A DNA stretch of 34,484 bases, from the NCBI GenBank assembly GCA_004294095.1, contig RDZR01000056.1, positions 1 through 34,484 of the forward strand, read 5' to 3'. Source of the DNA: Verrucomicrobiota bacterium. Its GTDB lineage: Bacteria; Verrucomicrobiota; Verrucomicrobiia; Verrucomicrobiales; Akkermansiaceae. Made by a program: the position numbers and the translations under genes. Below the pieces are notes generated by a model. It was not told where the DNA came from, did not search any database, and saw only the letters and a list, made by a program, of their open reading frames with translations. Below, in pieces: positions 5,828 through 31,908 of the stretch. The first letter of the stretch is position 1. Each line of letters starts with the position of its first letter.

Positions 5828-7132
5828 TCATGGTGCGGGTTCTTTCCATAACAGATTTTCTTTTTCTAACAAATTTTTTAATGTTGTGTGGCCGGCGGCA
5901 TCTGCCGTGACGATGAGGTATTCTCCATGCGGCGTGACTCGCATGCCGAAGTTCATGGTCACGCCACGATCCTTTAGTATCGACATCAAAGGGCGCTGAT
6001 TTTCGATGGTTTTGCTGGGTTCAAGCATGCGCGCAAGTCCTAACACAGCGCGGTAAGCAACCAGTGACCGCTCTTCGGAATCGAGCGCGGCATCACGCTC
6101 GGTTGGGAGCTCTGTCGGTGCTCTTTCGAGGGGAGCCGCCGTCTGAGGATCTGGACGCAGGCGGCAGTAGAGCAGTTCTCCAGAAGTTGCCCGAAAGCTC
6201 AGCCATGAACCAATTTCACCGAAGACGGCGCCCTCAATCGTGTAGGCACGCACGTTCGCTGCTTCATCTGCGGCGTAAATGTTCATGCTTAAATCAAGAT
6301 CGACAAATTTTTGGTCGAGGGAAAAATTGGTTTTAAAATCTATCTGATAGGTGAGGCTGTTTGAAAATGGTTCGATCTTAAAACTCGGGCTTTTGCTATT
6401 TCCGCTAGAGATGGTTGTGACGTTCTGAGAATTCACGGTGGTGCTGACACGGAATTTGAGAATATCGCTGCGAGTTTCGTATGCAGCAGTGATTTTTTCG
6501 TCGGGCAGCTCTTTGATGTTAGGCCCGAGCTTTGATGCAGCTTCAAATAAAAAGCCCTCCATGATAAATCCCAAGTGCCCAGGACCAGTGCTGTTAGATG
6601 TGGGATCTTCATCCCAACGTCTGAGGACCATGATCTCTCCTAGCGAGATCGCCGCACTATGCACGAGCGCCCATTTCCCAAATCCGTTGATACTCTCACT
6701 GGTGATGGCGAAGTCGTAGATTGATGTTTTACCATCGGCTGACATCAGCGAGACAAAAGTCGATTCATTTAAGACCGCCAGAGGTTGATCACTGTGGCGA
6801 GATGCAGCAAGATCAGCTTCGATGTCCCAATCGGCCTTGGCAGCGGGATAATTTTTTTTGTTAGAATAGGGTTTGGAATCGCTGGATTCGGCATTTGCAG
6901 GTTCAATATTTTTTTGCAAATCATCGACGACGACTACTTGGTTGGAGCTGATAAGTTGATTGAGAGTTTGCTCGAATTGTTCCGCGGAAATTTTTTGTTG
7001 TTCCAAATTATCGCGGATGGCTTTGGCGATGTTAGGTGGGCACAGAAGAATTTTTTGCACCCAAGAAGCCGCAGGAAGGTGGCTCAGGGAGAGCGACCAA
7101 AAGATCAAAGCTAAATGAAAATAACGCACCAT
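5828..7132 (-). CDS. Exported protein of unknown function
   Basis: A 434-residue protein, not recognised. A signal peptide is visible (MVRYFHLALIFWSLSLSHLPAA). Next comes a helical segment QQKISAEQFEQTLNQLI, a low-complexity linker rich in S, N and K, and a long beta-rich region (about 130-330) with regular alternation of polar and hydrophobic residues. The C-terminal part includes MNFGMRVTPHGEYLIVTAD. ATG 7132 is preferred over TTG 7138. The gene is divergent from the Hsp70 paralogue, with about 80 bases between the likely starts, and its stop lies 1 base from the convergent xerD stop. A role in the envelope is the most that can be inferred. Confidence 0.7.
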   Translation of the reverse strand: MVRYFHLALIFWSLSLSHLPAASWVQKILLCPPNIAKAIRDNLEQQKISAEQFEQTLNQLISSNQVVVVDDLQKNIEPANAESSDSKPYSNKKNYPAAKADWDIEADLAASRHSDQPLAVLNESTFVSLMSADGKTSIYDFAITSESINGFGKWALVHSAAISLGEIMVLRRWDEDPTSNSTGPGHLGFIMEGFLFEAASKLGPNIKELPDEKITAAYETRSDILKFRVSTTVNSQNVTTISSGNSKSPSFKIEPFSNSLTYQIDFKTNFSLDQKFVDLDLSMNIYAADEAANVRAYTIEGAVFGEIGSWLSFRATSGELLYCRLRPDPQTAAPLERAPTELPTERDAALDSEERSLVAYRAVLGLARMLEPSKTIENQRPLMSILKDRGVTMNFGMRVTPHGEYLIVTADAAGHTTLKNLLEKENLLWKEPAP

Positions 7133-11099: not shown

Positions 11100-12409
11100 G
11101 CTAAATTTTCGATCATTCTTTGCACTCGCTGCACACAACGCGATTTCCCTAACAGCATGAGCAAGTCATTCAGATCTGGGCCGTGGCTTCGCCCAGACAA
11201 GCTGACGCGGAGAGGAAACATGAGCTGGCCAGGTTTGCAGGCCACCATGGTCGCAGCATCTGAAATGCTAATCTTCGCGGTATCCAACGTCCATTCATCG
11301 ACACTCGCGAATCGCTCGGCAATTGCGATCAATCCATCGCGAGCAATCGCAGAGGCAGCAAGTTTTTCCATCGCTTCATGATCGATGCTAAATCCATCAT
11401 CTAACAAAAATTCTACCGCGTGAGGCACTTCCTCTAACAGCCTAACTTTTTCCTTCACCGCAGAAGCCATTGCTTCACTAAATTCTTCCGTCGGCAAACT
11501 CGCTGCTGCGATGAATGGCAGAGCCGCATGATGGAAATCGGCGAGGCTCAGCTTCGCCATGTGCTGCTGATTAAACCACCTGCATTTATCATAATCGAAC
11601 CGAGCGGGTGCGCGATTGATGCCTGCTAAAGAAAAGTTTTCCGCCAGCTCATCGAGCGTGAAAATTTCATTTTCGTTTTTAGGATTCCAGCCTAACAGAG
11701 CGATAAAGTTGGCAACCGCAGCAGCGACGAAACCATGGCGAGGATAGTCGCCCAGCGCCGCGCCTTCATCCCGCTTGGACATCTTTGATCCGTCACCATT
11801 CAAAATCAGCGGTATGTGGCAGTATTGTGGCGCAACACAGCCGAGTGCTTCGATCAACTGCAAATGCTTCGGCGTATTCATCAAGTGGTCTTCCCCGCGA
11901 ATCACGTGCGTGATCTCCATTTCCAAATCATCCACCACATTCACGAAGTGAAAAACATAGCTCCCGTCCGATCGTTTAATGACCATGTCCGGCGTGTTCG
12001 ATTCATCGCGGTAGTCAATCGTCACTTCCCCGCAGACGCCGTCGATCATCGTGATTGGCTTGCGCTCGAAGCGAAATCTCCACGCGCCGTCTAACTGATA
12101 GACTCGATCTGTTTGAACGAGTTTCTCAAACCACGCATCATAAATTTGGCCGCGCTCACTTTGTTGATAAGGCCCAAAGTCGCCACCTTTCATGGGCCCT
12201 TCATCCCAATCCAAACCGAGCCATTCCATGCCATCAAAAATCGCCTTGCGAGCCTCTTCCGTATTCCGAGCGGCATCGGTATCTTCAATGCGTAAAACAA
12301 AAACTCCGCCGTGCTTGCGGGCATACAACCAGTTGAAAAGCGCGGTGCGTGCGCCGCCAATGTGAAGGTAGCCGGTGGGTGATGGGGCAAAGCGAGTGCG
12401 AACGGTCAT
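11096..12409 (-). CDS. gltX: Glutamyl-tRNA synthetase
   Basis: A class I aminoacyl-tRNA synthetase of 437 residues that attaches glutamate to tRNA-Glu. The N-terminal RTRFAPSPTGYLHIGGART carries the HIGH-type site (HIGG, 16-19). RIEDTD follows at 40-45, HVIRGEDHLMNT near 168-179, and the KMSKR loop at 209-213 (GDGSKMSKRDEG). The C-terminal anticodon-binding region is present but the protein is somewhat shorter than the usual 465-490 residues. ATG 12409 was chosen as it lies directly before the conserved start; the reading upstream to 12517 is not family-like. It overlaps aroE by 4 bases and is divergent from bioA across 91 bases. With the broken gluQ at 4065, this is the second GluRS-fold gene here. 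Confidence 0.96.
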   Translation of the reverse strand: MTVRTRFAPSPTGYLHIGGARTALFNWLYARKHGGVFVLRIEDTDAARNTEEARKAIFDGMEWLGLDWDEGPMKGGDFGPYQQSERGQIYDAWFEKLVQTDRVYQLDGAWRFRFERKPITMIDGVCGEVTIDYRDESNTPDMVIKRSDGSYVFHFVNVVDDLEMEITHVIRGEDHLMNTPKHLQLIEALGCVAPQYCHIPLILNGDGSKMSKRDEGAALGDYPRHGFVAAAVANFIALLGWNPKNENEIFTLDELAENFSLAGINRAPARFDYDKCRWFNQQHMAKLSLADFHHAALPFIAAASLPTEEFSEAMASAVKEKVRLLEEVPHAVEFLLDDGFSIDHEAMEKLAASAIARDGLIAIAERFASVDEWTLDTAKISISDAATMVACKPGQLMFPLRVSLSGRSHGPDLNDLLMLLGKSRCVQRVQRMIENLA

Positions 12410-12500
12410 GTGTTTTGAAAATAGGCGGCCATCGCCAGTGCGTCCAGAATGCATGCGATCATTTTTTGAGAAAATTTTTGGTATCATCCGAATTTTTTTC

Positions 12501-13814
12501 ATGACCGATGATCCCAATCGGGACCAATGTCTGGCGATGCGAGACGATACCCGCCGATGGATTCAAGCAGATCAAACGCATGCATGGCATCCATTCACAC
12601 GTCAGCGCGAGTGGTGTACGCCCGGCAGAGAGCCGTTGGTGATGGTGAAAGGCGATGGAGTTTGGCTGTGGGATAGCGAGGGCCGCAAGTATCTCGATGG
12701 CAATTCGTCGATATGGACAAATATCCACGGCCATTCGCATCCGGCATTGGTCGCTGCTGTGCAAAAGCAAGCCGCCGTGCTCGGGCATAGTTCATTTTTG
12801 GGGCTCACCCACCCACTTGCGGCGGATCTAGCAGAAGCACTTTGCGCTCTGTTAGCTCCATCGGCCCTCGAGCGCGTTTTTTTCTCAGATGATGGCTCGA
12901 CGGCGGTTGAATGCGCTTTGAAAATGGCGGTGCAATATCGCATGCAAACAGGTGAGCCCGAGCGTTCGCAGTTTGTTGCCTTCGCCAATGGCTACCATGG
13001 CGATACCTTGGGCGCTGCTTCGTTAGGCGGAGTGGCTCGTTTCTTTGAGCGATTTTCCAATTGCGGATACAACGTCATTTTTGTCTCAAATTTAGATGAA
13101 CTATCCCACCTCGACGCGACGAAAATTGCCGCGGTGATCATTGAGCCACTCATCCAAGGAGTGAATGAAATGCGCCTTTGGCCGACTGGCTTTCTAACAG
13201 ATCTGAAAACATGGTGTGAGCGCCATGTTGTGCACTTGATCGCAGATGAGGTGATGACTGGATTTGGCCGCACGGGGAGCATGTTTGCCTGCCAAAAAGA
13301 AAATGTGACTCCGGATTTCCTATGCCTCGCAAAAGGTTTGACCGGTGGCATGATGCCACTCGCGGCCACTCTAACCACCGGCAGAATTTATGATGCGTTT
13401 TTAGGCGATGCCGAAAAAGCATTCTACTACGGGCATAGTTACACGGCCAATCCACTCGGCTGCGCCGCGGCACTTGCGAACCTCATGATCTTCCGTGACG
13501 AGCAGACGCTATCAACACTGCCTGAGAAAATTTGCCACATCCAAAAATGCCTAACAGCTCTCAAGGCGAGTCATCCGCAGGTCCATGAGGTGCGCCAGTG
13601 CGGGATGATCGCCGGCATCGAATTACGCCGAGCCGACGGCGAAAAATTTCCTGTTAGCGAACGCATGGGTGAGCAGATTTGCCACGCGGCACGGGCGCAT
13701 GGATTGCTGACTCGGCCAATTCTTGACACGATCGTTTTCATGCCGCCGCTGTGCATTTCTCGCGCAGAAATCGACCATGCATTTCACGCGCTGCAACAGG
13801 CGATGAAATGTTAA
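12501..13814 (+). CDS. bioA: Adenosylmethionine-8-amino-7-oxononanoate aminotransferase
   Basis: A PLP enzyme of 437 residues for biotin synthesis (KAPA to DAPA using S-adenosylmethionine as amino donor). Visible features are WHPFTRQREW near the start, typical of BioA, the SDDGSTAVECALKMA PLP-phosphate region, GYHGDTLGA, D249 in IADEVMTGFGRTG, and the Schiff-base lysine K278 in LCLAKGLTGGMMPLAAT. ATG 12501 is taken because the upstream extension to 12375 lies over the gltX start. No other bio genes are near. Its stop overlaps the stop of the convergent Minf_1886-family gene within a shared TTAA. Confidence 0.94.
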   Translation: MTDDPNRDQCLAMRDDTRRWIQADQTHAWHPFTRQREWCTPGREPLVMVKGDGVWLWDSEGRKYLDGNSSIWTNIHGHSHPALVAAVQKQAAVLGHSSFLGLTHPLAADLAEALCALLAPSALERVFFSDDGSTAVECALKMAVQYRMQTGEPERSQFVAFANGYHGDTLGAASLGGVARFFERFSNCGYNVIFVSNLDELSHLDATKIAAVIIEPLIQGVNEMRLWPTGFLTDLKTWCERHVVHLIADEVMTGFGRTGSMFACQKENVTPDFLCLAKGLTGGMMPLAATLTTGRIYDAFLGDAEKAFYYGHSYTANPLGCAAALANLMIFRDEQTLSTLPEKICHIQKCLTALKASHPQVHEVRQCGMIAGIELRRADGEKFPVSERMGEQICHAARAHGLLTRPILDTIVFMPPLCISRAEIDHAFHALQQAMKC

Positions 13815-14360: not shown

Positions 14361-17285
14361 TTGTTAATTAGAATCACATGGCTGGTTATTTGCAGCGCGT
14401 TGACTTTCATCAATGCGCAAGCTCAATCACCCCCAGCACAGGCGGCCACTCCAGCCGCTGCAGAGCAGACGGCGAGTGAATTGTTAAGCGCCGGTGAAAA
14501 AGCCTACAACGCTGGCCAATGGGATCTAGCAGCTGATGCCTTCAATACCTTCATCACGCAATACCAAGGCATCGAAGGCACCGCAGAAGCTGTCGCCCGC
14601 GTTAAGAGACTGTTAGCAATTTGTTGGACGCGCCTTGAACAATTTGATGCGGCGATGCCCTTGTTTGAAGAAGTGCTCAAGCAAGAAGGCATCGAAAAAA
14701 AACAACGCGCCGATCTTTTGTTTTTCGCAAGTTTGGCAAAAATTCGTAGCGGAAAAGCCGCGGAAGCTCGCGAACTGTTAGGACAGCTTTTTAACGATCC
14801 AACGGTCGAACGCAGCCGCCGGATGGAGGCATTGGTCCTCGGTGGAAATAGCTACGTAATCGAGCAAAAATGGACGGAGGCGATCGACTTTTTTCAAAAA
14901 TACACGGATGAAATTGTGGCCTTCAGCTCTGAGGCCGGTGCACGCGCTCGCATGATGTGGCTGCACGCCCTCATGCAGGAAAAGCGCCGCAAAGAAGCGA
15001 TCGATCTCGCGCTGAAAATGCATCAAGATGTCGATCAAATGCGGCAGCTCGCTACGTTTTCTCTGCTCCTGATCGAGTTGGGCTCACAAGCGATCGATGC
15101 AGAAGAATACTACGAGGCGATTCGCGTGCTGCGACTGGTGCCGACGGCGGCTGAGATCAAGGAATTGCAGGCATTCCGCATTGCTGAGGCGGAAAGCGAT
15201 TTCACCACGGCGACGAATACGCGCATGCAAGTGAGGGCCTCGCAAATTCAAAGCTCGCTGGCAGAAATGAAGCTGGAGCTAGAGCAATTTGAAAAAATTC
15301 CGCAGTTCGATAGTGCTTCGAGAATGCGCCTGGCGACGGCATATTTTCAGCTCGATCGCACCCGCGAGGCGTGTCTCATTTTGGATCAAATGGTCCGGCA
15401 AATGCCGCCTGATGCGTTGGTAGAAGCTGCTTGCTCGGCACTCATCCGCGGCTGGATGACGCTTGAGCGATACCCACGAGCAGTGCGCACGGCAGATCTC
15501 TATCAGGAGCGACTGATCAACCTAACAGAAAAGCCTAACATGCCGGATGTGTTATTTCTGCGCGCCCAAGCACTCGAAGGTCAATTCTTGCATGCGGATG
15601 CCGCCACTGCATTTCGTGAGGTGGCTGCAAAATTCCCAGCGTTGCCGATCGCGGCAAAAGCGAAGTTCATGGCCGCCTATAACGTGCTCATGCTTGAGGA
15701 TTATCAAGCGGCGGCTAAGGATTTTGATGAGCAACTCAAATCACTCAAGCCAAGCGATGAAATGTGGCCGCATGTGATTTTTTGGCGCGGGATGGCCAGT
15801 TATTTCGATCAACAATGGGAGCCAGCTCGTGAAATTTTCGCGCGTTATCAAGAGCAGGCGAAGTCATCTGAGAACAATCAGGAATACCTAGACGATGCTT
15901 CATTTCGGATAGCATACAGTCATTTTTCTGAAGCCAATTACACGGAAGCTATCAAGTTGTTAGAAAAGTTTGAGAAAGCCTTTCCGGAAAGTGAATGGTT
16001 GAGCGAAGCACTTCTAGCACTCGGCGATTCTTACGGTGCTGAAGGTCTGTTAGATAAAGCCGATCAAGCCTATGCGCGGATCGGAGTCGAGGCACCTGGG
16101 TTTCATGATGAAGGATGGTTCAAGCGCGGAAATATCCTGAAAATGCAAAAGGACACCGCCGGTATGAATGCGCATTATGAGAATTTTCTCTCCAAGCGCA
16201 GAGATAGCCCGCGCGTGCCGGAGGCGATTTATTGGTTAGGATGGGTTGCCAAACAGAAGGGCGATCGCGCCGCTGCTCAGGAAATTTATTGGCAGGCCAT
16301 TCGCCGCTTTGGCAATGACCCACCGCGCCCTGGTGTGGAGGATCTTTTTGTGAGTTTGTTAGATAGCTATCCGGATTCTGATAAAATTCAGTTAGAAGAA
16401 AAACTCAACGACTTGGCCACTCAGGCGAAGACTACTTTGCAGAAACGCCTCGCCGTGCGCTGCCGCTGGGCGCTGGCCATGTTTTATTTGGACCATCCAT
16501 TTTTCCCCGCTGAGTTGCGTGCTAACAAATCGCGCGACATGCTGGCGGACCTCGCGCCCGATGTGGTGCCCGAGGAAACATCGCCGAAAATTTTAGCCGA
16601 TGTAGCAGATGCCATGATGCAGCGTGGAGAACTTCCCGCCGCCCGCACGATGTATGAAAATGTGCGAAAATGGTGGCCTCGTGCGCCGGAGCGGGACCGC
16701 GCGTTTGCGGGGCTTGGATTTCTTGCTCAACGCGCAGGGCAGCCTGAAGTCGCGCTCACCGCGTTTGATCGTTTTGAAAAAATGGCGGTGATGCCAAAAA
16801 GCGCACCGGATGCCAATGGGGTTTCGCTCGTCGAAAGTGAGCTGGGCGCGAAAGTTGCCCTCGCTCGTGCAGACTTGCTTTCTAACAGCTCTCCGGAGAA
16901 GGCTCTTCACGTGTTGCTGGCCTTGCAAAAATCCAAAGCCATGCCTGCGAAAACTCGCGCTCATGCATTGATCGCGGCGGCACGCATGCATGTCTCACGA
17001 TCCAAATTCCGCGACTCGCTGCCTTACTTTGAGCAAATCTATCTGTTATATAATCGTTTTCCAGACCTCGTCGCCGCCGCCTATTTTGAGCGTGGCCAAG
17101 CATTGGAAAAATTGAAGATGAACGATCAAGCGCGCGAGGTGTATTCCGAATTGGCCAATCGCGCAGATTTGCAAGAAATGGCACCAGCCAAGTCCGCCCG
17201 CGCCCGCGCTGAGGCACTCGGTGGAGTGATTCCGCCCGCCGCTCCGGAAGGAGAAATGATTGCACCCACATCGAGCACCCGATGA
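14361..17285 (+). CDS. Large periplasmic TPR-repeat protein
   Basis: A 974-residue exported scaffold protein and first gene of a six-gene ExbB/ExbD operon. A signal peptide is visible (LIRITWLVICSALTFINAQA), then at least ten tetratricopeptide-like repeats along the whole length, for example AGEKAYNAGQWDLAADAFNTFI, ANYTEAIKLLEKFEKAFPESEW and LLDKADQAYARIG. The start is TTG 14361; an in-frame TAA at 14349 excludes anything much longer. The stop overlaps the next start by 4 bases (ATGA at 17282). TPR proteins such as CpoB/YbgF accompany Tol systems and TPR proteins accompany TonB2 systems, so a link between the inner-membrane motor and periplasmic partners is likely. Confidence 0.9.
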   Translation: MLIRITWLVICSALTFINAQAQSPPAQAATPAAAEQTASELLSAGEKAYNAGQWDLAADAFNTFITQYQGIEGTAEAVARVKRLLAICWTRLEQFDAAMPLFEEVLKQEGIEKKQRADLLFFASLAKIRSGKAAEARELLGQLFNDPTVERSRRMEALVLGGNSYVIEQKWTEAIDFFQKYTDEIVAFSSEAGARARMMWLHALMQEKRRKEAIDLALKMHQDVDQMRQLATFSLLLIELGSQAIDAEEYYEAIRVLRLVPTAAEIKELQAFRIAEAESDFTTATNTRMQVRASQIQSSLAEMKLELEQFEKIPQFDSASRMRLATAYFQLDRTREACLILDQMVRQMPPDALVEAACSALIRGWMTLERYPRAVRTADLYQERLINLTEKPNMPDVLFLRAQALEGQFLHADAATAFREVAAKFPALPIAAKAKFMAAYNVLMLEDYQAAAKDFDEQLKSLKPSDEMWPHVIFWRGMASYFDQQWEPAREIFARYQEQAKSSENNQEYLDDASFRIAYSHFSEANYTEAIKLLEKFEKAFPESEWLSEALLALGDSYGAEGLLDKADQAYARIGVEAPGFHDEGWFKRGNILKMQKDTAGMNAHYENFLSKRRDSPRVPEAIYWLGWVAKQKGDRAAAQEIYWQAIRRFGNDPPRPGVEDLFVSLLDSYPDSDKIQLEEKLNDLATQAKTTLQKRLAVRCRWALAMFYLDHPFFPAELRANKSRDMLADLAPDVVPEETSPKILADVADAMMQRGELPAARTMYENVRKWWPRAPERDRAFAGLGFLAQRAGQPEVALTAFDRFEKMAVMPKSAPDANGVSLVESELGAKVALARADLLSNSSPEKALHVLLALQKSKAMPAKTRAHALIAAARMHVSRSKFRDSLPYFEQIYLLYNRFPDLVAAAYFERGQALEKLKMNDQAREVYSELANRADLQEMAPAKSARARAEALGGVIPPAAPEGEMIAPTSSTR

Positions 17286-18370
17286 AGTTATTTGGCATCA
17301 TTTTTTCGGTGTGGGTTGCGCAATTTCTCTCCATCGCGACGGCAGAGGAAATCCTCAATGCGCGGCCAGAAGCGGATGAAATTCGCTGGAAAGACCCGGC
17401 TCGTGGCGCGCCAGTGGAGGTCCGCATCATGAGTGCAGATAAAAGCCAATTGGTCGTTGAAAAAACCATCGGCGTGGGCGTGACGCGGCGCAATGTGCCA
17501 CTCGCCGATCTAGCAGGTGTGCGCTTCACTCTAACACTTGCCGAGAGAAGGTGGCATCGGCGCGCGGATGAATCTGTGCTCAAACCACTGCAAGTGCTGT
17601 GGAAGGCGCGATCTGCGACGTTGGCTCTGAGTGGCTCCAACGCTGGGGAAACTGGCCTCGCTCTCGCCACTGCCCTGCGCCGCAGCGATACCGATGAATC
17701 GTTGAAAGAGGCGGAGGCGATTTTACAACAAATCATCAGCAAGGATTGGGTGCAATCGCGCATCAAAGACGCCATCGCACAGCAATCCCACATCGCATTG
17801 ATCCGCGCGGTGGAAAAAGAAAAATTTGATGAGGCCGATCGTTTGGCATGGGCGATTACGGAAGATCCTCGTGCGGCCGATGGCATGCTCTATGCTGTCA
17901 ATTATTTAGGAGATCGCCATCAAGCGGCGCTCAAAGTCATTGATCATGAAAACCCGCGTTGGTCGGAAGATCCGGAAATCATGCCCGAGCGCATGCGCAC
18001 CTATCATCTCACCGTGGATTTTTATCTCTACCCAAGTCTTTTCCATGGTGATGACGAACTCGCCGCTTCCACTGGTTTACGCAAAGCCGCCGATTTCTAT
18101 CAGATGAACAAACAAGACGACTTGGTCATCCAAACGCTGGAAGATTTGGTGGCGCTTTATCCTGAATCTTCAGCGGCGAAAGACTCCACCGTTCAGCTCG
18201 CCACTCTCAAAGCAAAAGCGGCTGCGCCCCCACCGGTTCCTGCAACCTCAACCACCGAAAGTCCAAAAGAGGAGGCCGCTCAACCGGATGAGAAAATTGA
18301 TAAAAATACTCCGTTAGAAATGGCTGGCCCGCCAGCACCTCCACCTCCATTCAACATCTTTGGTGATTAA
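17282..18370 (+). CDS. Periplasmic protein of ExbBD operon, unknown function
   Basis: A 362-residue protein, not recognised. A signal peptide (MKLFGIIFSVWVAQFLSIATA) is followed by a short beta-rich region (VEVRIMSADKSQLVVEKTIGVGVTRRNVPLADL, about 45-78), then helix-rich repeats resembling degenerate TPRs (about 110-310) and a Pro/Ala/Glu-rich tail ending PPAPPPPFNIFGD. The 4-base overlap with the upstream TPR gene points to translational coupling. The Pro-rich tail may be a flexible spacer across the periplasm or a docking segment. The next gene, exbB, starts 31 bases downstream. Confidence 0.8.
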   Translation: MKLFGIIFSVWVAQFLSIATAEEILNARPEADEIRWKDPARGAPVEVRIMSADKSQLVVEKTIGVGVTRRNVPLADLAGVRFTLTLAERRWHRRADESVLKPLQVLWKARSATLALSGSNAGETGLALATALRRSDTDESLKEAEAILQQIISKDWVQSRIKDAIAQQSHIALIRAVEKEKFDEADRLAWAITEDPRAADGMLYAVNYLGDRHQAALKVIDHENPRWSEDPEIMPERMRTYHLTVDFYLYPSLFHGDDELAASTGLRKAADFYQMNKQDDLVIQTLEDLVALYPESSAAKDSTVQLATLKAKAAAPPPVPATSTTESPKEEAAQPDEKIDKNTPLEMAGPPAPPPPFNIFGD

Positions 18371-18401
18371 ACCAACTCGATAACCTAAACTAACATACGC
18401 C

Positions 18402-19175
18402 GTGAGACCATTCTTCCAAATCATCCGCCCTCTGTGCATTGCTCTCGTGCTCTATGCCATGAGCATGTCGTTTGCGACTCATGTCGCGGCCCAAGATGCC
18501 ACGCCGCAGTCGGCTCCCGCGGCGCAAGTGCAAAAAGAAAGCCTGTTAGATATTTACTTCAAAGGCGGCTGGGTGATGCACTTTATCGCGCTTTCATCAG
18601 TGGCCGTCATCGGCGTGATTGCGGTGTGCGCGATTCGTATCAACCGCAAAAAACTCTTACCCGCAGAGATTGAGAAATCCTTGGCCTTGGCCCTCTCTCG
18701 TCAGGATGTCAGCGAAGCACTCAAGATTTGCGAATCGAACGAAAGCGCACTTTCTCACGTCATCAAAGAAACGTTTACCAAAGCGGCAGCGGGCGTGACT
18801 GTTTACTCCAAGGCGGATCTGGAATCCGTCGCCGCGGAGACCATTTTCCACGAGGAAACCAAGAGCATGCTGTGGGTGAATATGCTCAACGGCCTAGCGG
18901 CAGTGGCACCGATGATGGGCCTGTTAGGAACGGTTTCTGGGATGATCGGTAGCTTTGATCAACTCGCCGCCGGTGCGACCAAACCGTCCGACTTTGCAGG
19001 CGGCATCGGCGAGGCGATGATTACCACCGCCGCCGCTCTGATCGTTGCGATTCCGGCGATGTTTTGTTACTTCATTTTCAAAAATTTACTGCAATCGCTG
19101 GTCACGGAATTGGCCAATGCCTCCTCCAATTTGATCAACGGATTCATCAGTGGCTCATCCGTCCCGGCTGAGTAA
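18402..19175 (+). CDS. exbB: MotA/TolQ/ExbB proton channel protein
   Basis: A 257-residue inner-membrane subunit of a proton-driven motor. Residues 1-30 look like a signal sequence or an extra membrane segment, followed by a short periplasmic Q/A-rich part. The three family helices are at about 56-78, 160-185 and 203-228. The core MLNGLAAVAPMMGLLGTVSGMIGSF and GEAMITTAAALIVAIPAMF are typical of ExbB/TolQ. The start is GTG 18402 with no clear ribosome site. Two exbD genes follow after 33 and 6 bases. It differs strongly from the two ExbB-type proteins at 29.8-31.9 kb, so it is not a recent duplicate of them. Confidence 0.94.
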   Translation: MRPFFQIIRPLCIALVLYAMSMSFATHVAAQDATPQSAPAAQVQKESLLDIYFKGGWVMHFIALSSVAVIGVIAVCAIRINRKKLLPAEIEKSLALALSRQDVSEALKICESNESALSHVIKETFTKAAAGVTVYSKADLESVAAETIFHEETKSMLWVNMLNGLAAVAPMMGLLGTVSGMIGSFDQLAAGATKPSDFAGGIGEAMITTAAALIVAIPAMFCYFIFKNLLQSLVTELANASSNLINGFISGSSVPAE

Positions 19176-19208
19176 AATCTAACAACCATCTAACGATTTT
19201 CGTTTTTC

Positions 19209-19622
19209 ATGAAATTGAGACGCAGGCAAGTGGACGACGTCGGGCTGCAAATTGCGCCGATGGTGGACATCACTTGGATTATGATCATCTTTTTCATGGT
19301 GACCAATGAGATCAATGAAAACCAATACGCGGTGGACATCAATCTGCCGATCGCTACCGCCGCGGTGGTGCCGGAAGATCAGACGGGCCGCGTGATTGTG
19401 AACATCGATGCCGCAGGCACCTATTTTCTCGGGAGTGAAGCCGTGGATCTGCCCACGCTGACGCAGCATCTCAAGCGCCGCATGGCCGAGTTTCCACCGC
19501 TGAAAGTTTACCTGCGGGCGGATGCCGAGACCGCTGCTCTCAAGACCAAAGAAATCTACCGCGCATGTGCGGATGCAGGTGCCGTGGAAATTGTGTTAGG
19601 AACCTTTAACGCAGCCAACTAA
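19209..19622 (+). CDS. exbD: ExbD/TolR biopolymer transport protein, first copy
   Basis: A 137-residue single-pass protein with a cytoplasmic N-terminus. The transmembrane helix follows APMVDITWIMIIFFMVT, where the Asp in MVDI is the proton-carrying residue of ExbD/TolR. A periplasmic domain with the usual beta-alpha pattern follows (VIVNIDAAGTYFLGSEAV, VYLRADAETAALKTKEIYRACADAGAVEIVLGT). The next exbD begins 6 bases after its stop. ExbD acts as a dimer inside the ExbB pentamer, so two paralogues in one operon may form a heterodimer. Confidence 0.94.
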   Translation: MKLRRRQVDDVGLQIAPMVDITWIMIIFFMVTNEINENQYAVDINLPIATAAVVPEDQTGRVIVNIDAAGTYFLGSEAVDLPTLTQHLKRRMAEFPPLKVYLRADAETAALKTKEIYRACADAGAVEIVLGTFNAAN

Positions 19623-19628
19623 CTCACC

Positions 19629-20078
19629 ATGATTTTACGCCGCAGAGAGGAACAATCGATCGAAGTGCAGCTCGCTCCGATGGCGGATATTGGCTTTTTG
19701 CTGATTTGCTTTTTCCTGATTTCCTCGCGCCCGCCACGCAATGAAGCGGACTTGAGCATGACCTTGCCAGGCTCGGTATCCGATGAGCAATCGATCGATA
19801 TTCCGCAGGACATCACGATCAGCATTCAAATGGACGGCAACGTGATCGCCAATGATGAAGTGATTGGGCCCGCGGGAGATCAGGCGTTGCCGAGGCTGGT
19901 GACGCTTTTGAAAAATTTCAAAACGGCGGCCGATTTGAATCAATCGCAATCACTCGTCACGGTGGATGCAGCCAATCAAACGAACCATCAACGGATCATC
20001 GATGTGCTCAACGCCTGCGGCTTGGCGGGCATTCGTGGCGTAACTCTCGCAGATGACATCGAGGAGGATGAACTCTAA
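19629..20078 (+). CDS. exbD: ExbD/TolR biopolymer transport protein, second copy
   Basis: A 149-residue partner of the preceding ExbD. The N-terminus (MILRRREEQSIEVQLAPMAD) leads into the helix IGFLLICFFLISS, again with the key Asp (MADIGF). The periplasmic domain carries SIQMDGNVIANDEVI and an extra insert (LLKNFKTAADLNQSQ) before VTVDAANQTNHQRIIDVLNACGLAGI. It ends in an acidic tail, DDIEEDEL. It clearly differs from the first copy in loops and tail, so the pair are old paralogues rather than a fresh duplication. The VWA gene starts 5 bases after its stop. Confidence 0.94.
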   Translation: MILRRREEQSIEVQLAPMADIGFLLICFFLISSRPPRNEADLSMTLPGSVSDEQSIDIPQDITISIQMDGNVIANDEVIGPAGDQALPRLVTLLKNFKTAADLNQSQSLVTVDAANQTNHQRIIDVLNACGLAGIRGVTLADDIEEDEL

Positions 20079-20083
20079 CTGTT

Positions 20084-21139
20084 ATGGCAAAAACGCTTAA
20101 ACGTGCAGCATTCGATCCTCGCCAACTCGCTCGTAAAACGGCGACGACGGCGATGCTCACCAGCCTCATCATCCATGGGGTGTTAGCGATTTTTGCCGGC
20201 GTATGGGTCGTTGCCACTTACATCCGTAAAGACGCGCCTAAGTTCGTAGCACCGCCCGCACCAGCGATTAAAATTCCACCTCAGACGCGGCAGCATCGGA
20301 TGAATCTTGCGGCCAATGCGGCGCTGGCATCCAAGCCAACTTTCAAAGCGCGGCTCGTTAGTCTGCGGCCGACGGCCTTTGCGCTGCCAGAAGCACCCGC
20401 TATTTCGATGAATGACATGCTCACGCCCGATCCAGCATCGATGGCGACGCAGATGATCACCGGCCTCGCAGGCACTGCTGGCGCGGGCGCAGGCGGCGGA
20501 TTTGGTCTCGCGGGAGCGGGTGGCACCGGTCTCGGGACGGGCATTAATTTCATGGGAATCAAGACTCAGGGCAAGCGTGTGCTCTTGATGTTCGATGTCT
20601 CTGGCTCAGTGGTGAATAAGGCGAATAAATCTGAAATGCCTCTGGCGAAAATCAAAGACGAGACGCTGACGTTGATCAACCAACTTCCTGCGGATTCGCG
20701 CTTTGGGATCATTCAATTTGTCAGAAATTACAAATTTTTTAACGCCGAGTTAGTCCCGTCCACGCAGCCGAATCGGGATCTCGCCAAGCAATGGGTGGAG
20801 ACCGAGTGGAATGAATCTGGCAGCATGCCGCGCAATGGAAAAGGCGTGATCGCACCGGAGCCAAATGGCCTTCCGCCCGTTTTGCGCAGGGCTTTTGAAA
20901 TGAAACCGGACGTGATTTTTCTGATCTCCGATGGCAGCTTCGAGCGCGGCGCGGGCGGCGTGACGGACGACATTCCCGACGAGGAGTTTGAAGATCTTTT
21001 CAAACAACTCACCGGCGGCGCTTCTCAACGGGTGCTGTTCCATTTCATCGGTTTTCAAATGAAACCGGACGATGAAGATTTTTGGAAAAAAATGGCGCGC
21101 CGCAATGGCGGCCAGTTAAGACAGATTAAATCATTCTAA
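20084..21139 (+). CDS. VWA-domain protein with TonB-type membrane anchor
   Basis: A 351-residue protein with an unusual architecture. A basic N-terminus leads into one membrane helix (about 24-46) containing S27-LII-H31-G, which is the SxxxH motif used by TonB to couple to ExbB/ExbD. A Pro-rich spacer (about 51-66), an Ala/Pro linker and a Gly-rich stretch (127-153) follow. The C-terminal half (about 165-351) is a von Willebrand A domain with a metal site DVSGS (D171, S173, S175) and D283 in FLISDGS. There is no TonB C-terminal domain. Its place directly after exbB-exbD-exbD supports the motif: the motor's output protein is probably this VWA protein. Last gene of the operon, with no clear terminator after it on this strand. 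Confidence 0.92.
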   Translation: MAKTLKRAAFDPRQLARKTATTAMLTSLIIHGVLAIFAGVWVVATYIRKDAPKFVAPPAPAIKIPPQTRQHRMNLAANAALASKPTFKARLVSLRPTAFALPEAPAISMNDMLTPDPASMATQMITGLAGTAGAGAGGGFGLAGAGGTGLGTGINFMGIKTQGKRVLLMFDVSGSVVNKANKSEMPLAKIKDETLTLINQLPADSRFGIIQFVRNYKFFNAELVPSTQPNRDLAKQWVETEWNESGSMPRNGKGVIAPEPNGLPPVLRRAFEMKPDVIFLISDGSFERGAGGVTDDIPDEEFEDLFKQLTGGASQRVLFHFIGFQMKPDDEDFWKKMARRNGGQLRQIKSF

Positions 21140-21322: not shown

Positions 21323-22198
21323 TCAGCCATCTTTGCGGCGGCGCACGAAGCAACCAAGACCAAGCATCGAAAGCAGCAGAGCAGAAGATGGCTCAGGAAT
21401 CGGACGAATCGTCAAATCAGAAGGCTCAAATGGCAAAGTTGCAATGGGAACTTGAAAACCAGTGTATTCATTAAGAAAGAACAATTGGCCACCAGTTCCA
21501 AATCCTTTGGCCCCGTAAAATTGATTCGTATCAAAATTACGGGCAATTTGTCTCGGATAGTCGGTGGATGTCACCGTGTATGTATTCGATGGGAAGAAAT
21601 CGTAATAAGCCAAGCGAGGGTTTAAGAATGTATCGCCACCGCTAATGAAGAATCTTGGAGCTGTGCCCGTGGAGGCTCCAATGTTGCCAGCAAATTCAAT
21701 ATCGCCAAAGTCCATGGCCTCTGTGTTATTTCTGACACTGGCTTCGATGACAGGCGCTGTGTAAGTATTCGTGACCGTGTTGATAGAAATGCGAGTAAGG
21801 TCATCCGTGCCAACTGGGATATACCAGAAGTTAGTTCCATCGAATGCGCCATCTGCTGCTTGAAAAGTTCTGGTGTTGAGCGATGGGGCACTTAGAAGTG
21901 AATGGGTATTTGTGGCGAAATTGTAGTAGGCCATTCTGACGCGCGTGCCAATACCCGCTTGCGCCAAATCTTCTTGGTAAATCACAATGTCACGCGTGCT
22001 GTCGTAAGCCAACGAATTGACCTGACCAAAAAATGGACTCGCTGTCAAAAATGTGCTGACACCGGTGTTGACGTCAGTTCTCCAAATTTGATTGTTCCCA
22101 ACAGCACCCCAAATAGCTTGCTGAGCAAAGATTGGCTCAGAAAGAAGGATGGTTGAAAAAGTTAGTCCGAAAAGATAACTTAATTTTTTGATTTTCAT
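21323..22198 (-). CDS. PEP-CTERM sorting-signal protein
   Basis: A 291-residue exported protein. A signal peptide (MKIKKLSYLFGLTFSTILLSEPIFA) is followed by a repetitive beta-rich body with propeller-like repeats (NQIWRTDVNTGVSTFL, NPRLAYYDFFPSNTYTVTSTD, GQLFFLNEYTG). It ends with a PEP-CTERM signal: PIPEPSSALLLSMLGLGCF and the basic end VRRRKDG. Such proteins are processed by exosortase and sent to the cell surface or extracellular matrix. No exosortase gene is in the window. Base composition is richer in A+T than its neighbours. It is a single-gene unit with its own terminator. Confidence 0.88.
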   Translation of the reverse strand: MKIKKLSYLFGLTFSTILLSEPIFAQQAIWGAVGNNQIWRTDVNTGVSTFLTASPFFGQVNSLAYDSTRDIVIYQEDLAQAGIGTRVRMAYYNFATNTHSLLSAPSLNTRTFQAADGAFDGTNFWYIPVGTDDLTRISINTVTNTYTAPVIEASVRNNTEAMDFGDIEFAGNIGASTGTAPRFFISGGDTFLNPRLAYYDFFPSNTYTVTSTDYPRQIARNFDTNQFYGAKGFGTGGQLFFLNEYTGFQVPIATLPFEPSDLTIRPIPEPSSALLLSMLGLGCFVRRRKDG

Positions 22199-27286: not shown

Positions 27287-28720
27287 TTATTTGTCCGCCG
27301 GTTTTTCGCGGTCCGCAGCGCGTTGCACGCGGCTGACATATTGTTCGAGGCTTTCACTTTTCTTCACGTTGAGTGCTGCTTGCAGAAATGGCATTGCATC
27401 CTCGTAACGTTTTTCGCGGACGAAAAGTTGGCCGAGTGCTAAATTCGCCTTGTATGATGTCTCCTCAAATCTTGTGGCAAGCTGATAGTGGGTGCGAGCT
27501 TCTGCTGAGAATTTTGTGCGAAGTGCTTCGTCTTTCTCGTCACGTGATAAAAGATCCTGATGGCGGCCATATTCTAACAGAACTTCGGGATTAGCGGGAT
27601 TGATTTTGAGCAACTCGGCAAGCAACTCGCCGGTGCGTTGTGGGTTGTTTTGTGCTTGAGCGATGCGCACTTCGGTTAGACGCAGAGCCGTTTCATCTGC
27701 GAGAGAAAGCTTGGTTTTGATTTTGCGACGGACCGCATCGGTGAGTTGCTCCGCTCTTTCTGGTGAGCCGTAATCGTTGAGAATGCGGGCCGATTTCAGC
27801 GAGCGCTCGAGATTGATTTGCGGGCTGCGCTCCATCGCTTCGAGGTAAGCTGCAAGTGCCAGTTGCGGTTGGCCGTTATTCATGTGTAAATTTCCTAACA
27901 GATTAAGATTGGTTTCATCTGCAAGGCCTTTGACGCGCAAGGCTTCTAAATTGATAATGGCATCCTCATTGCGCTCGCTCGCGAGATAGGCCTGCGTTTG
28001 CTGGAGCCAGAGTTGTTTATCATTCGGGTTTGCCTCAATCAGGGTATTAAGCATGCTGGCTGCCTCGATGTGATTTTCCTGAGCGATCAATGCTTGAGCA
28101 AGCCCGAGCTTCCAATCGCGCGATGCGCTATCGAGCAAATTTGCTTGGCGGTAGGCACCTTCCGCAGCAATCGGGTTATTCTTCAATAACAAGCAATAGC
28201 CTAACAGCCCGTAAACTCGCGCAGAATTTTCCCCAAGCTCGATGGCTTTTTGAAGCATCGGCAGCGCTTCGTCCGTTTGGTTTTTGGAAATGTAGAGGTA
28301 AGCCAGATTGGTGTGTGCACGGCGGAATCTTGGGAATTTACGAATCGCTTCCAGAAATGCTTTGCGCGCATCATCCGCGCGATCTGCTTGGAAATAAAGA
28401 TTTCCTAACACAAAGGTCATCGCCGGGCTGATTGTGGCCGGGGCTTTTTTAGGATCGCTCGGAGCTTCCGTTTCGCGAATGAAGAGGGCGAGTTGTTGTT
28501 CCGCTTCGCGAAATTTGGACTGCTCAAACAATTCGCGAATGATCAAGAGCGCCGCTTGTTCATCGCTGGTGACCTTGGGCTCGACATCGCTTAAAAATCC
28601 ATAAGAGCCGACAAAGTCGCGTAGAAACTTGCTGTCTTGAAAAAGATCCGCAGGCGGAATGATCGGCGCGGCGGCGAGCCATCCCGGCAGCATGAAAAAA
28701 AGGAGTGTGCGAGTCATCAT
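27287..28720 (-). CDS. TPR protein of the TonB2-type operon
   Basis: A 477-residue periplasmic TPR protein and last gene of a six-gene operon. A signal peptide (MMTRTLLFFMLPGWLAAAP) and about ten TPR units are visible, for example ALFIRETEAPSDP, TNLAYLYISKNQTDEALPMLQKAI, LLGYCLLLKNNPIAAEGAYRQA and LGQLFVREKRYEDAMPFLQAAL. ATG 28720 was chosen because it opens the signal peptide 22 bases after the tonB stop; the longer frame overlaps tonB. In Vibrio-type TonB2 loci a TPR gene sits in the same last position, where it is reported to assist transport. Confidence 0.9.
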   Translation of the reverse strand: MMTRTLLFFMLPGWLAAAPIIPPADLFQDSKFLRDFVGSYGFLSDVEPKVTSDEQAALLIIRELFEQSKFREAEQQLALFIRETEAPSDPKKAPATISPAMTFVLGNLYFQADRADDARKAFLEAIRKFPRFRRAHTNLAYLYISKNQTDEALPMLQKAIELGENSARVYGLLGYCLLLKNNPIAAEGAYRQANLLDSASRDWKLGLAQALIAQENHIEAASMLNTLIEANPNDKQLWLQQTQAYLASERNEDAIINLEALRVKGLADETNLNLLGNLHMNNGQPQLALAAYLEAMERSPQINLERSLKSARILNDYGSPERAEQLTDAVRRKIKTKLSLADETALRLTEVRIAQAQNNPQRTGELLAELLKINPANPEVLLEYGRHQDLLSRDEKDEALRTKFSAEARTHYQLATRFEETSYKANLALGQLFVREKRYEDAMPFLQAALNVKKSESLEQYVSRVQRAADREKPADK

Positions 28721-28742
28721 GGTGAATTTGATATGGAATCGA

Positions 28743-29393
28743 TCAGTTTTTTTTGACTTCAAAATTGAATGGAACAATGCACTTGGAGGCGATTGCTTTG
28801 CCGCTATTGGAGGCTGGCTTGAATTTCCATTTTCTAACAGCTTTGAGCGCGGCATCATCTAACAGCGGCTGTCCGGATGATTGGTGAATCGTTGCTGCCG
28901 TGATCTGCCCTTTGGCATCCACGCTGCAACTGATGAGCACTCGTCCGCCGACACCTTTTTTGAGCAAGGAATTCGGAAACGTTGGCTGGATTTTAGTGGT
29001 GGGCGTGGCGGGTGAATCGAGTTCCGAGCCCATGGCATCATCGCTGCCTTTGAGTGCGAATTTTGGAATCTCCATGATGAAGCCGCCGCCTGTGCCCGCT
29101 GTGAGAGCACTTAAATCGATGCCGAGGTCTAGCTCGGTCGCTTCCTCGACCATTTCTTCCGGCTCAGGCTCGGGCTCGACTTCTTCCGGTGGTTCTTCCG
29201 TCTCAAAACTCTGATCATCAGGCGGCTCGACGACGATTTCTGGCGGAGGAACCGAGGAGCCATCAATCACTGCGGTGAGTTTTTGGGTGAGGGGAATGGC
29301 GATGAAGACTCCAATAGTGGCCAATAAACCACCGAAAATCGCAAACCAGTGAAGTTTTTGCGAGTTGGGTGGGCGATAAACGTGGCGTTTCAA
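28743..29393 (-). CDS. tonB: Energy transducer TonB
   Basis: A 216-residue protein that carries the energy of the ExbB/ExbD motor to outer-membrane receptors. The membrane helix is at about 15-37 (LHWFAIFGGLLATIGVFIAIPLT), followed by a Pro/Glu-rich periplasmic spacer (48-85, EPEPEPEE) and the TonB C-terminal domain (about 125-216), with IQPTFPNSLLKKGVGGRVLISCSVDAKGQI, LDDAALKAVRKWKFKPA and VPFNFEV. The start is TTG 29393, since no ATG is available before residue 81. The helix lacks the SxxxH motif that the VWA protein at 20.1 kb has, which fits a TonB2-type partner. Confidence 0.93.
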   Translation of the reverse strand: MKRHVYRPPNSQKLHWFAIFGGLLATIGVFIAIPLTQKLTAVIDGSSVPPPEIVVEPPDDQSFETEEPPEEVEPEPEPEEMVEEATELDLGIDLSALTAGTGGGFIMEIPKFALKGSDDAMGSELDSPATPTTKIQPTFPNSLLKKGVGGRVLISCSVDAKGQITAATIHQSSGQPLLDDAALKAVRKWKFKPASNSGKAIASKCIVPFNFEVKKN

Positions 29394-29416
29394 ATGTATA
29401 AATCTGCTAGAACTCG

Positions 29417-29824
29417 TTACTTGGTGGAGATCGAAATTTTCTCCTTCATGGCACCTGCGAGCAGCGCTTGGCCATGGACCTGCTGCACGACGCCATGAGT
29501 CGCTGCCTTATCGCCTTGGATGATGACTGGCATGTCGGGCGTTTCTAACAGGAGTGGTTTGATTTTACTAATCACGCCTTGCACGCCGATGCTTTCGCCG
29601 CCGTAGAATACTTTATCCTCAGACGTCACAGCTAACAGAATCGAATTTTTTTCTAAGGCACTGGCTCCGCTGACATCTGGTTTATTTACGGTCACTCCGG
29701 TTTCCTCGACAAAAACCGTTGAGACGATGAAAAAGATCAGCAGAATGAAAACGCAATCAATCATCGATGATAAATCGATGGTGACTGGTTCGTCAGGTTC
29801 GTCGGAAAAGCTGCGGCCAAACAT
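29417..29824 (-). CDS. exbD: ExbD biopolymer transport protein of the TonB2 operon
   Basis: A 135-residue protein. The N-terminal cytoplasmic part is short and the helix carries the proton-binding Asp (SSMIDCVFILLIFFIVSTVF). A periplasmic ExbD domain follows (ILLAVTSEDKVFYGGESI, PVIIQGDKAATHGVVQQVHGQALLAG). It starts 3 bases after the exbB stop, and the tonB start lies 23 bases after its own stop. Sequence differs widely from both ExbD copies at 19.2-20.1 kb. Confidence 0.94.
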   Translation of the reverse strand: MFGRSFSDEPDEPVTIDLSSMIDCVFILLIFFIVSTVFVEETGVTVNKPDVSGASALEKNSILLAVTSEDKVFYGGESIGVQGVISKIKPLLLETPDMPVIIQGDKAATHGVVQQVHGQALLAGAMKEKISISTK

Positions 29825-29827
29825 AAA

Positions 29828-30448
29828 TTATTGGGGTTGGTTTTGATCAGTGCGGTGAAAGCGGCTGGTGAGAATCAAGCTCTCCAAGCGCACCAGCGCG
29901 GCGTGAATGCGGTTGCGCTTGGCTTGGATGATTAAGGCGATGAAGAGTCCGGGCAGGGCAATCGTCAGTCCCGTTTGAGTGGTGATGAGTGCTTCTTGCA
30001 TGCCATCGGCCACGCGCTGCATGCCTGCTGGGCCTTTGCCGTGCGAGAGCCCAGAAAACATGGCTAACATGCCCATCACCGTTCCTAACAGACCCGCAAG
30101 TGGCGCTGCGGCGACGAGCGTGTTAAGCACTAACAAGCGGCGATCGATTCCTGATAGAGCGATGATTTTAATTTCATCAAAGCGGCGGTTGACGGTTTTG
30201 ATGCTAAGCTTTGGGCCGTGCAGCGCGTAGCTCAACGCTTCGCCTAAGCGGCCTTTGGCCAGATCTGGCTGAGCGATGAATTGTTCCCACTTCTCCTGTT
30301 CCTTCTCATTGAGGTTGCCCTGATTGACGTGGATCAACGCGGAAATCGCCGATGCGTAAAGAATGCAAGCCACCGCACCGAGCATATACATGATCGGGCC
30401 ACCTTCGAGAAATAGTTGCCAGCCATCTGTTAGGAATTGAGGGATCAT
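29828..30448 (-). CDS. exbB: ExbB2-type proton channel protein
   Basis: A 206-residue MotA/TolQ/ExbB-family channel subunit. Three membrane helices are visible: PIMYMLGAVACILYASAISAL, VLNTLVAAAPLAGLLGTVMGMLAMF and ALITTQTGLTIALPGLFIALI. ATG 30448 is preferred over TTG 30451. It begins 5 bases after the TtpC-like gene stop. The small size and position between a large ExbB-like gene and exbD fit ExbB2 of TonB2-type loci. Confidence 0.93.
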   Translation of the reverse strand: MIPQFLTDGWQLFLEGGPIMYMLGAVACILYASAISALIHVNQGNLNEKEQEKWEQFIAQPDLAKGRLGEALSYALHGPKLSIKTVNRRFDEIKIIALSGIDRRLLVLNTLVAAAPLAGLLGTVMGMLAMFSGLSHGKGPAGMQRVADGMQEALITTQTGLTIALPGLFIALIIQAKRNRIHAALVRLESLILTSRFHRTDQNQPQ

Positions 30449-30453
30449 CAAAT

Positions 30454-31908
30454 TTACGCAAGTGTCGGTTTGAGTTCGATGTCGTCATCCCCATCATCGG
30501 AAGCATCCACCACCTTGCTTGGTTGGGCTTTTTCATTGCGCCGTTCGCGTTCCGTGGTGCCGTTGATCATGGCGATGCCGATGCCTTCCAACTCGGAGAA
30601 GCGGCCTTTGATGTGGCTTTTAAGCAAGCCATGAATCACCAGCACTGGAATGGCGACAATCAATCCTTCCGCCGTGGTGATGAGTGCTTCAGAAATACCT
30701 GCGGAAAAGTTTTTTGCATTGCCGGTTCCATAAAGCGCCATGGCTTGGAACGTTTTGATGATGCCGAGCACGGTGCCTAACAGCCCCATCAATGGACCTG
30801 CGGCGGCGGTGAGGGCGAGAAATGGGATGAAGCGATCCATCCTTGGTTTGATCGCCACCAATTTTTCAAATAACGCCTCTTCTAACACGCGGCGTTTTTC
30901 AAAGAACATGCGAGTGCCCGTTTGCACGATGGCGCCGGCAGGGCCGGAAATGGCTTCTGCCTTGCGAATCGCCTGGTCTTGTTTTCCAACTAACAGGTCA
31001 TCTAAAATTTCATTGATAAGGTTGCGAGATGGAACGCGGATGCGTGAAATTTCCCAAACTTTGAAGATGGCGATCGAAAAGGATATGGCACCTAACAGAA
31101 GAATCGCGTGGCCGACGATGCCGCCTTTTTTGATCGTATCGAGCAGCGATTCTTCGGCTGCCGCCACTTCAATCGCTTTGCCCATCGTGCCATCGAGGGG
31201 CAATAATCCGTAGCCATTTTTAACGGATTCTTTGATCGCATGGCTATCATCCTCAAGTGCCACGACGGTTGGCAGCGCGGTGCCTGTTTCAGCAAAGGTC
31301 GCCACTCCATCAAACGAGCCGTCTGTCGCGGAAAAGAAAACCGCTGGACCGGCAAGGAGGATGTTGCCTTTGATCGCCTCACTGCCGTTGCGCAGGACGG
31401 TTCCTTCAAAACGATGGCCGCCAGCCACTTTTTCTAACCGATCGAGGCCCAAGGTAACTGCCTCCAAGCGTTGGGTGATTTCTTGGGTTGGATCGTCGGT
31501 CGCCGCGTTGGCGCGCTGCTCGGATTGTTCGATGGATTGCTGATAGAGTTGAGTTTCCGCTGGGTGGAGGCGGGTGAGCAGAGCTTTGGCGTATTGGGTC
31601 AGAATGCCAGACGAGTAATTGAAGTCCACTTTGCGGGCTTCCACTTCGCGCTCGAGTGTTTTTTGGGTCGCGGTGCGGCGTTCTTCTTCACGCTGGAGTT
31701 CCCGCAGTTCGGTGCCGAGCTTGAGTGCCTCATCATCTAACAGATTTATTTCGCGGTAAAGATTTCTGCGTAAATCGGATGTCTCCCGTTGTTTTTCAGT
31801 GAGCTGAGCGACGGCCTTTTTCAGATCGGCATCAGCGGTTAGACTCGGCGTTTGCGCGATCGCAGATGAGCAAAGTGCAAGAATGATAAAAAGTGAACGA
31901 GGGCTCAT
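30454..31908 (-). CDS. ttpC: TtpC-like ExbB protein with large periplasmic extension
   Basis: A 484-residue protein of the MotA/TolQ/ExbB family. A signal peptide (1-18) leads to a long coiled coil (about 22-130), a beta-rich middle part (165-235) and then three ExbB-type helices at about 263-283, 360-388 and 406-428 with PLMGLLGTVLGIIKTF and ALITTAEGLIVAIPVLV. The tail is acidic (DASDDGDDDIE). In Vibrio TonB2 systems, TtpC has this layout and is needed along with ExbB2, ExbD2 and TonB2. The start overlaps the DUF3450 stop by 4 bases, so the two proteins are probably coupled. Confidence 0.9.
   Translation of the reverse strand: MSPRSLFIILALCSSAIAQTPSLTADADLKKAVAQLTEKQRETSDLRRNLYREINLLDDEALKLGTELRELQREEERRTATQKTLEREVEARKVDFNYSSGILTQYAKALLTRLHPAETQLYQQSIEQSEQRANAATDDPTQEITQRLEAVTLGLDRLEKVAGGHRFEGTVLRNGSEAIKGNILLAGPAVFFSATDGSFDGVATFAETGTALPTVVALEDDSHAIKESVKNGYGLLPLDGTMGKAIEVAAAEESLLDTIKKGGIVGHAILLLGAISFSIAIFKVWEISRIRVPSRNLINEILDDLLVGKQDQAIRKAEAISGPAGAIVQTGTRMFFEKRRVLEEALFEKLVAIKPRMDRFIPFLALTAAAGPLMGLLGTVLGIIKTFQAMALYGTGNAKNFSAGISEALITTAEGLIVAIPVLVIHGLLKSHIKGRFSELEGIGIAMINGTTERERRNEKAQPSKVVDASDDGDDDIELKPTLA

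Follow-up and report, generated by a model that had tools for sequence, protein, structure and literature searches.

We analysed a 34,484-nucleotide stretch of contig RDZR01000056.1 from a member of the Akkermansiaceae (Verrucomicrobiota), hereafter called the window, and found that six packed plus-strand genes at 14361–21139 encode an ExbB-ExbD-ExbD motor of the Ton/Tol type together with an anchored output protein that ends in a von Willebrand factor A (VWA) domain. The VWA arrangement is already published, and the operon belongs to a described family. The part for which we found no report in the open-licence PMC literature is that the end domain is exchanged: the same motor genes are directly followed by anchored outputs ending in a VWA domain, a squalene-hopene-cyclase-like toroid, a PA14-like domain or a DUF4159 domain. 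We think it probable that the operon encodes a force machine in which a proton-driven motor acts on the anchored VWA domain.

The operon and its output protein

The six open reading frames (ORFs) encode, in this order, a tetratricopeptide repeat (TPR) protein (14361–17285, 974 aa), a second secreted protein named P2 (17282–18370, 362 aa), an ExbB/TolQ-type motor subunit (18402–19175), ExbD 1 (19209–19622), ExbD 2 (19629–20078) and the VWA output protein (20084–21139, 351 aa). The TPR and P2 genes overlap by 4 bases, and the following gaps measure 31, 33, 6 and 5 bases; every coordinate, strand and gap given in the original prediction, which a model had made from the letters of the window, was confirmed. 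The TPR protein starts with a signal-like stretch and carries Pfam TPR repeats above the cut-off as well as YbgF/CpoB-type repeats (TIGR02795, 115 bits, cut-off 90.1). P2 also has a signal-like start, and a Pro-rich tail; no Pfam or NCBIfam family matches it above the cut-off. Its AlphaFold 2 (AF2) model, made from two sequences (predicted local distance difference test, pLDDT, 71), is a TPR-like helical repeat, and the best PDB match of this model is the YbgF TPR domain, with a probability of 1.00 but an E-value of only 3e-3. ExbB (Pfam MotA_ExbB, 83.0 bits) and the two ExbDs (Pfam ExbD, 68.8 and 60.1 bits) all score above their cut-offs, and the transmembrane Asp is D20 in both ExbD 1 and ExbD 2. 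Because the same six-gene order is present in nine other genomes (L033–L040 and L042, the TPR gene of L037 being truncated by the contig end), the arrangement is not a matter of chance.

In the output protein, a hydrophobic stretch at about residues 23–45 (20150–20218) reads as a TonB-type anchor helix and holds the docking motif S27-LII-H31 (20162–20176). It is followed by a Pro- and then Gly-rich linker (about residues 48–155, 20225–20548) and by the VWA domain (about residues 160–350, 20561–21133) with the metal-site motif D171-V-S173-G-S175 (20594–20608). Searched alone, the protein gave no VWA match and no TonB C-terminal domain match in Pfam, and nothing in the PDB. The end-domain fold was assigned with a profile of 18 relatives: it finds the inter-alpha-inhibitor H4 VWA domain at E 9e-11, and there is a weak match to BatB (E 0.14). 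Among the Pfam VWA models VWA_3 does best and is matched by 12 of the 18 relatives at E 0.1, the window's protein not being among them. In the alignment of these relatives H31 (18/18), D171 and D283 are invariant, while S27 varies, and the window's protein possesses the complete set of metal-site residues D171-x-S173-x-S175 and D283. The SxxxH motif in the membrane helix, the Pro-rich spacer behind it and a C-terminal VWA domain with an intact metal site in the place of TonB, all proposed earlier, are thereby borne out.

This architecture and its gene order were described from sequence by Williams-Jones et al. in 2025 (PMC12204202). The marks of that family are an S-x3-H-x6-L-x3-S (SHLS) anchor with the His foremost, a Pro-rich or disordered linker of about 100 residues, within it a predicted beta-strand termed the "motor box", and a vWA end. 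In the Planctomycetes-Verrucomicrobia-Chlamydiae group, the vWA genes often lie downstream of genes for a TPR protein, a TolQ-like protein and a pair of unlike TolR-like proteins (PMC12204202). Since the window's operon shares the Ser/His anchor, the Pro-rich linker, the vWA end and these upstream genes, it is a member of the published family. Unlike the described proteins, the output of the window lacks the L and S of SHLS, and the conserved P2 gene is not mentioned in the available description of the family. The second family of that article, TPH-vWA, has an Asp-bearing pore helix, no SHLS and no tolR/exbD neighbours (PMC12204202); it was rejected for the window, where two ExbD genes adjoin and the anchor has both S and H. 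The main text of PMC12204202 contains none of the words "squalene", "PA14", "DUF", "toroid" and "prenyltransferase", and the open-licence PMC literature yielded neither an experimental study of the motor-VWA arrangement nor a mention of the other end domains. The earlier statement that no experimental description was known therefore stands, as the available text of PMC12204202 reports no deletion phenotype for vWA transducers and gives their function as unknown, but the arrangement itself was not new.

Exchange of the end domain

The genome of the window contains a sister operon (L053, 6940–14206, contig C95 of genome G000) that encodes a TPR protein, a P2-like protein, ExbB, two ExbDs and a 548-aa anchored output. 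The end domain of this output matches SQHop_cyclase_C with 33.9 bits (cut-off 26.1). A profile of 11 such toroid outputs finds squalene-hopene cyclase at E 3e-12, a match made up of short repeats that would each fail individually, and all 11 match the Pfam model SQHop_cyclase_C at E 0.001. The motif of squalene cyclases is D-x-D-D, and as only one of 29 toroid outputs has it, we set catalysis aside and claim no enzyme activity for the toroid.

We surveyed three overlapping sets (84 class genomes, 59 relatives and 79 phylum genomes) with an ExbD2 profile drawn from different kinds of operon, and examined 80 stretches hand-picked from the stronger rows of the class and relative surveys plus 20 from the phylum survey, which together are not every strong row. 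Loci L033–L152 contain 102 ExbD2 genes above 100 bits, 34 of them without an output passing the first filter. Two of these 34 are followed by outputs without the His (L041 and L086), while for the other 32 there is no ORF of 250 aa within reach or the next ORF is unanchored. The remaining 68 passed, and one of them, L110, was then discarded as a spurious case. The outputs found directly after ExbD2 carry a VWA domain in 41 cases, a toroid in 30, DUF4159 in seven and a PA14-like domain in four. DUF4159 was matched with 73.6–94.8 bits in the five of the seven such outputs that were scanned with Pfam; PA14 exceeds the Pfam cut-off in one of the four PA14-like outputs only (L122), so that this label is weaker. 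The profile of the VWA-output linker matches 9/30 toroid, 3/4 PA14-like and 0/7 DUF4159 outputs. Outside the class, 13 of the 20 examined loci have a classifiable output, and all 13 are VWA. Two PA14-like outputs (L050, 6355–7929; L083, 2430–4037) additionally have a SAM domain on the N-terminal side of the anchor, where the protein is predicted to be cytoplasmic. We also saw lower-scoring ExbD2-type genes followed by long unanchored ORFs, mostly of more than 900 aa and cut at the stretch end (L104, L106, L107, L109, L111, L112, L141, L143–L147 and L152), which perhaps form a separate ExbBD subfamily whose secreted partner is large.

The toroid type occurs in at least 21 of the 37 genomes of the genus, once without the His (G018). 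A search with the VWA protein through the window's genome and 58 relatives gave some match at E 1e-5 in 24 of the 59. Strong matches came from one genome of the same genus (G028, 69%) and from genomes in other families of the same order, so that the VWA gene is carried by two of the 37 genomes of the genus. A scan of the genome contigs returned a single relative, L032 from Luteolibacter pohnpeiensis, which carries the complete operon with a VWA protein of 67% identity; its contig is apparently identical to G028:C179.

A quick tree built from the motor genes requires at least 7 changes of the end-domain label (the least possible number being 3), and the approximately unbiased (AU) test rejects a single VWA clade (p-AU 0.0002). 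The window and 67 loci make 68 rows, of which this tree holds 63, the other five having no ExbB or ExbD1 in their stretch. A repeat tree, made without eight doubtful or long-branched rows (L114, L124, L126, L131, L132, L134, L135 and the long-branched L105), gave 5 changes and a p-AU of 5e-6 for the single VWA clade; L114, L124, L126 and L134, which have no Pfam VWA match, and L131, whose match lies below the cut-off, had been assigned to the VWA class by clustering only. The repeat tree is quick as well, and in it the long branches of L127 and L138 join each other. The labels were fixed before the trees, and the clade test followed once the first tree had been seen. The motor tree is silent on which end domain came first.

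Several outputs may also stand in a row. Two consecutive VWA outputs are found in L127 and L138, and a VWA followed by a PA14-like output in L155. In L063 (5358–9709) a PA14-like, a VWA and another PA14-like output, all anchored with SLLIH, lie side by side in a stretch without recognised motor genes. The sister operon of G028 (L072) shows no output after ExbD2, and an anchored PA14-like gene (11810–13201) precedes its TPR gene. On balance, we lean towards reading TPR/P2/ExbB/ExbD/ExbD as a general-purpose envelope motor with exchangeable VWA, toroid, PA14-like or DUF4159 tools on one anchor-and-linker format, sometimes several in tandem and sometimes motor-less, with the motor used in trans; the window's genome would then run two such motors with different tools.

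Docking residues and outputs without a motor

For the conservation analysis we used the window and 62 loci, 63 rows in total, in which an anchored output and the three motor genes were all available. Throughout these rows the transmembrane Asp of each ExbD is invariant, as are ExbB Thr177, Thr209 and Pro218, which by alignment correspond to T148, T181 and P190 of E. coli ExbB. The pore Thr in ExbB and the transmembrane Asp in ExbD, together the mark of 5:2 ion-driven motors, are thus present in every row including the window. Ser66 in the first transmembrane helix (TM1) of ExbB is equally invariant (63/63). In cryo-electron microscopy of the E. coli complexes, TonB Ser16/His20 lie against ExbB Ser34/Trp38 and TolA Ser18/His22 against TolQ Ser28/Trp32 (PMC12215075). 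Ser66 aligns to Ser33 of the TolQ chain 9avi (match E 1e-18), where the sequence is S-x3-W; E. coli TolQ Ser28 aligns likewise, but within a stretch scoring -3 bits.

On the side of the outputs, those directly after ExbD2 were classed by the C-terminal domain alone, and 80 of these 82 carry xxxxH in the anchor helix, a count not wholly independent of the selection since the class profiles were trained on outputs already past the His filter. The residue four positions before the His is S in 45, A in 32, T in two and V in one. The anchor His is a constant feature of the outputs and the Ser is not. The original prediction had named homologues without conserved S27 and H31 as an argument against a driven VWA protein; the His passes this check, while the Ser is often replaced by Ala.

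Anchored outputs occur without a motor as well. L044 and L045 consist of TPR-P2-VWA genes with S-H anchors, exbBD being absent; G058, the genome to which L045 belongs, additionally carries a motor operon (L059) after which no output was found. Among the VWA-class genes not directly after ExbD2, 12 of 16 have the His, the others being the fragment L043 and the subfamily L047–L049. The fragment (6030–6614 in G047) has neither anchor nor motor and is perhaps the remnant of a lost operon. Free VWA genes had also been expected to speak against a driven protein. They do occur, but those of the L044/L045 type keep the His, which would suit use of a motor in trans and is no refutation. One could instead regard the VWA protein as a passenger whose anchor is a relic, transcribed together with a Tol-like motor for some other load. 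The anchored VWA-type genes in stretches without recognised motor genes (L044–L046, L063, L064, L066–L068) and the His lost in L041 would fit, yet the His is kept beside the motor over four end-domain classes and in most VWA genes not next to ExbD2, and we judge this explanation improbable.

The docking residues would be conserved to the same degree if the VWA protein were a regulator or assembly factor on the motor that exerts no force, for example a plug sensing periplasmic load or a wall ligand and switching the ExbBD channel. The Ser-His pair has been discussed as a signal route into ExbB (PMC12215075), and unrelated folds in the same slot could be alternative sensors. Such a role is at odds with the long Pro/Gly linker, as in TonB and TolA, and with the grouping of the vWA protein among force transducers (PMC12204202); we consider it unlikely, though less so than a relic anchor.

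A probably driven VWA domain and its setting

In the favoured reading, that of a driven transducer, a putative ExbB pentamer and the two ExbDs, probably as one heterodimer, would form a proton-driven inner-membrane motor. A single helix of the VWA protein would dock outside ExbB via H31 (and S27) near Ser66, comparable to the published AlphaFold 3 models in which the transducer helix docks at the edge of the ExbB pentamer via the conserved His (PMC12204202). The VWA domain, one of several end domains that can be exchanged on this motor, would reach into the periplasm on the Pro/Gly linker of about 110 residues; there it may grip a partner, and the motor would pull on the domain or let it go. 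The likeliest partners are TPR and P2, the two secreted TPR-type proteins encoded in the operon, because they are kept with the VWA gene at two loci without motor genes. The proposal that the proton motive force acts on the VWA domain agrees with most of the residue-level tests and with the published in-silico model. Engagement of a ligand by the metal site, also proposed, is weak as a general rule: the D-x-S-x-[ST] word is present in 29 of the 41 motor-adjacent VWA outputs and other relatives have no VWA domain at all, so that metal-dependent ligand binding cannot be general.

Several observations weigh against a driven VWA domain. The anchor has A38 and V42 in the places of the missing L and S of SHLS. 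In ExbB, the equivalent of E176 is E in only 51 of 63 rows, and the position matching the E. coli TM1 Trp has not retained this residue, a Trp standing one residue further on in 25 of 63. The His is absent from one VWA output beside ExbD2 (L041) and from one toroid output (L086), and anchored VWA genes without an adjacent motor exist. As xxxxH also occurs in the same N-terminal hydrophobic window of 85 of 366 other ORFs taken as a control, the motif alone is not rare, and the weight lies on the 80 of 82 outputs together with the conserved ExbB side. The AF2 model of the VWA protein, computed from its sequence and that of one relative, is poor (mean pLDDT 44.6), and Foldseek found nothing under E 0.001 with it (Rpn10 and factor B are among the weak VWA-type matches); it was therefore not used as proof of the VWA fold. 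Its linker has low confidence and shows no strand at the "motor box" stretch, the model being of too low a quality for a verdict on this point. Finally, operon membership is no proof of interaction.

With the Ton system the operon shares motor subunits, the SxxxH anchor and the linker, but a VWA domain replaces TonB_C, the two ExbDs are unlike and TPR partners are present. With Tol-Pal (TolQ-TolR-TolA, CpoB/YbgF) it shares motor, anchor and a YbgF-like TPR protein, while TolB, Pal and the TolA end domain are missing. The AglRQS motor of Myxococcus gliding likewise combines one TolQ-type with two TolR-type subunits. The ExbB/TolQ and ExbD/TolR homology and the YbgF-like TPR protein could suggest that the operon simply serves this organism as its Tol-Pal or Ton system, TolA or TonB having an unusual form. 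However, none of the six proteins matches TonB_C, TolB or Pal in Pfam and NCBIfam, by which a canonical Ton and a canonical Tol-Pal system were rejected. Elsewhere than in the operon, the genome encodes two TonB_C proteins, of which one lies in the window, so that the operon is not its only candidate for a Ton output, and its five OmpA-domain genes all lie on other contigs. We regard this last alternative as very improbable.

The TonB_C protein of the window (28743–29393), a true TonB, belongs to a Ton-type cluster on the minus strand (27287–32756), which further comprises a DUF3450 protein (31905–32756), a long ExbB (30454–31908), a short ExbB (29828–30451) and a TPR protein (27287–28858). 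In G045, the VWA gene is followed at a distance of about 230 bases by a Ton-type cluster, which matches with 25–31% the one that the window has at 27–33 kb on the other strand. Most genes flanking the operon differ from those in the two nearest relatives, and compared with the G028 stretch no window ORF of at least 150 codons outside the operon finds a match, except an ExbB paralogue. Given these flanks a mobile island was considered; we do not claim one. A PEP-CTERM protein gene (21323–22198, minus strand) is convergent with the operon.

To our knowledge, the Ton and Tol motors each pull one type of end domain. An end domain swapped by evolution provides natural experiments that separate what the motor does from what it holds. 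The residue counts and the swap test add to a VWA family that has been published, as far as we found, from sequence and models only. The end-domain exchange is testable, and it offers a route to find which envelope targets of the Verrucomicrobiota need proton-driven force.

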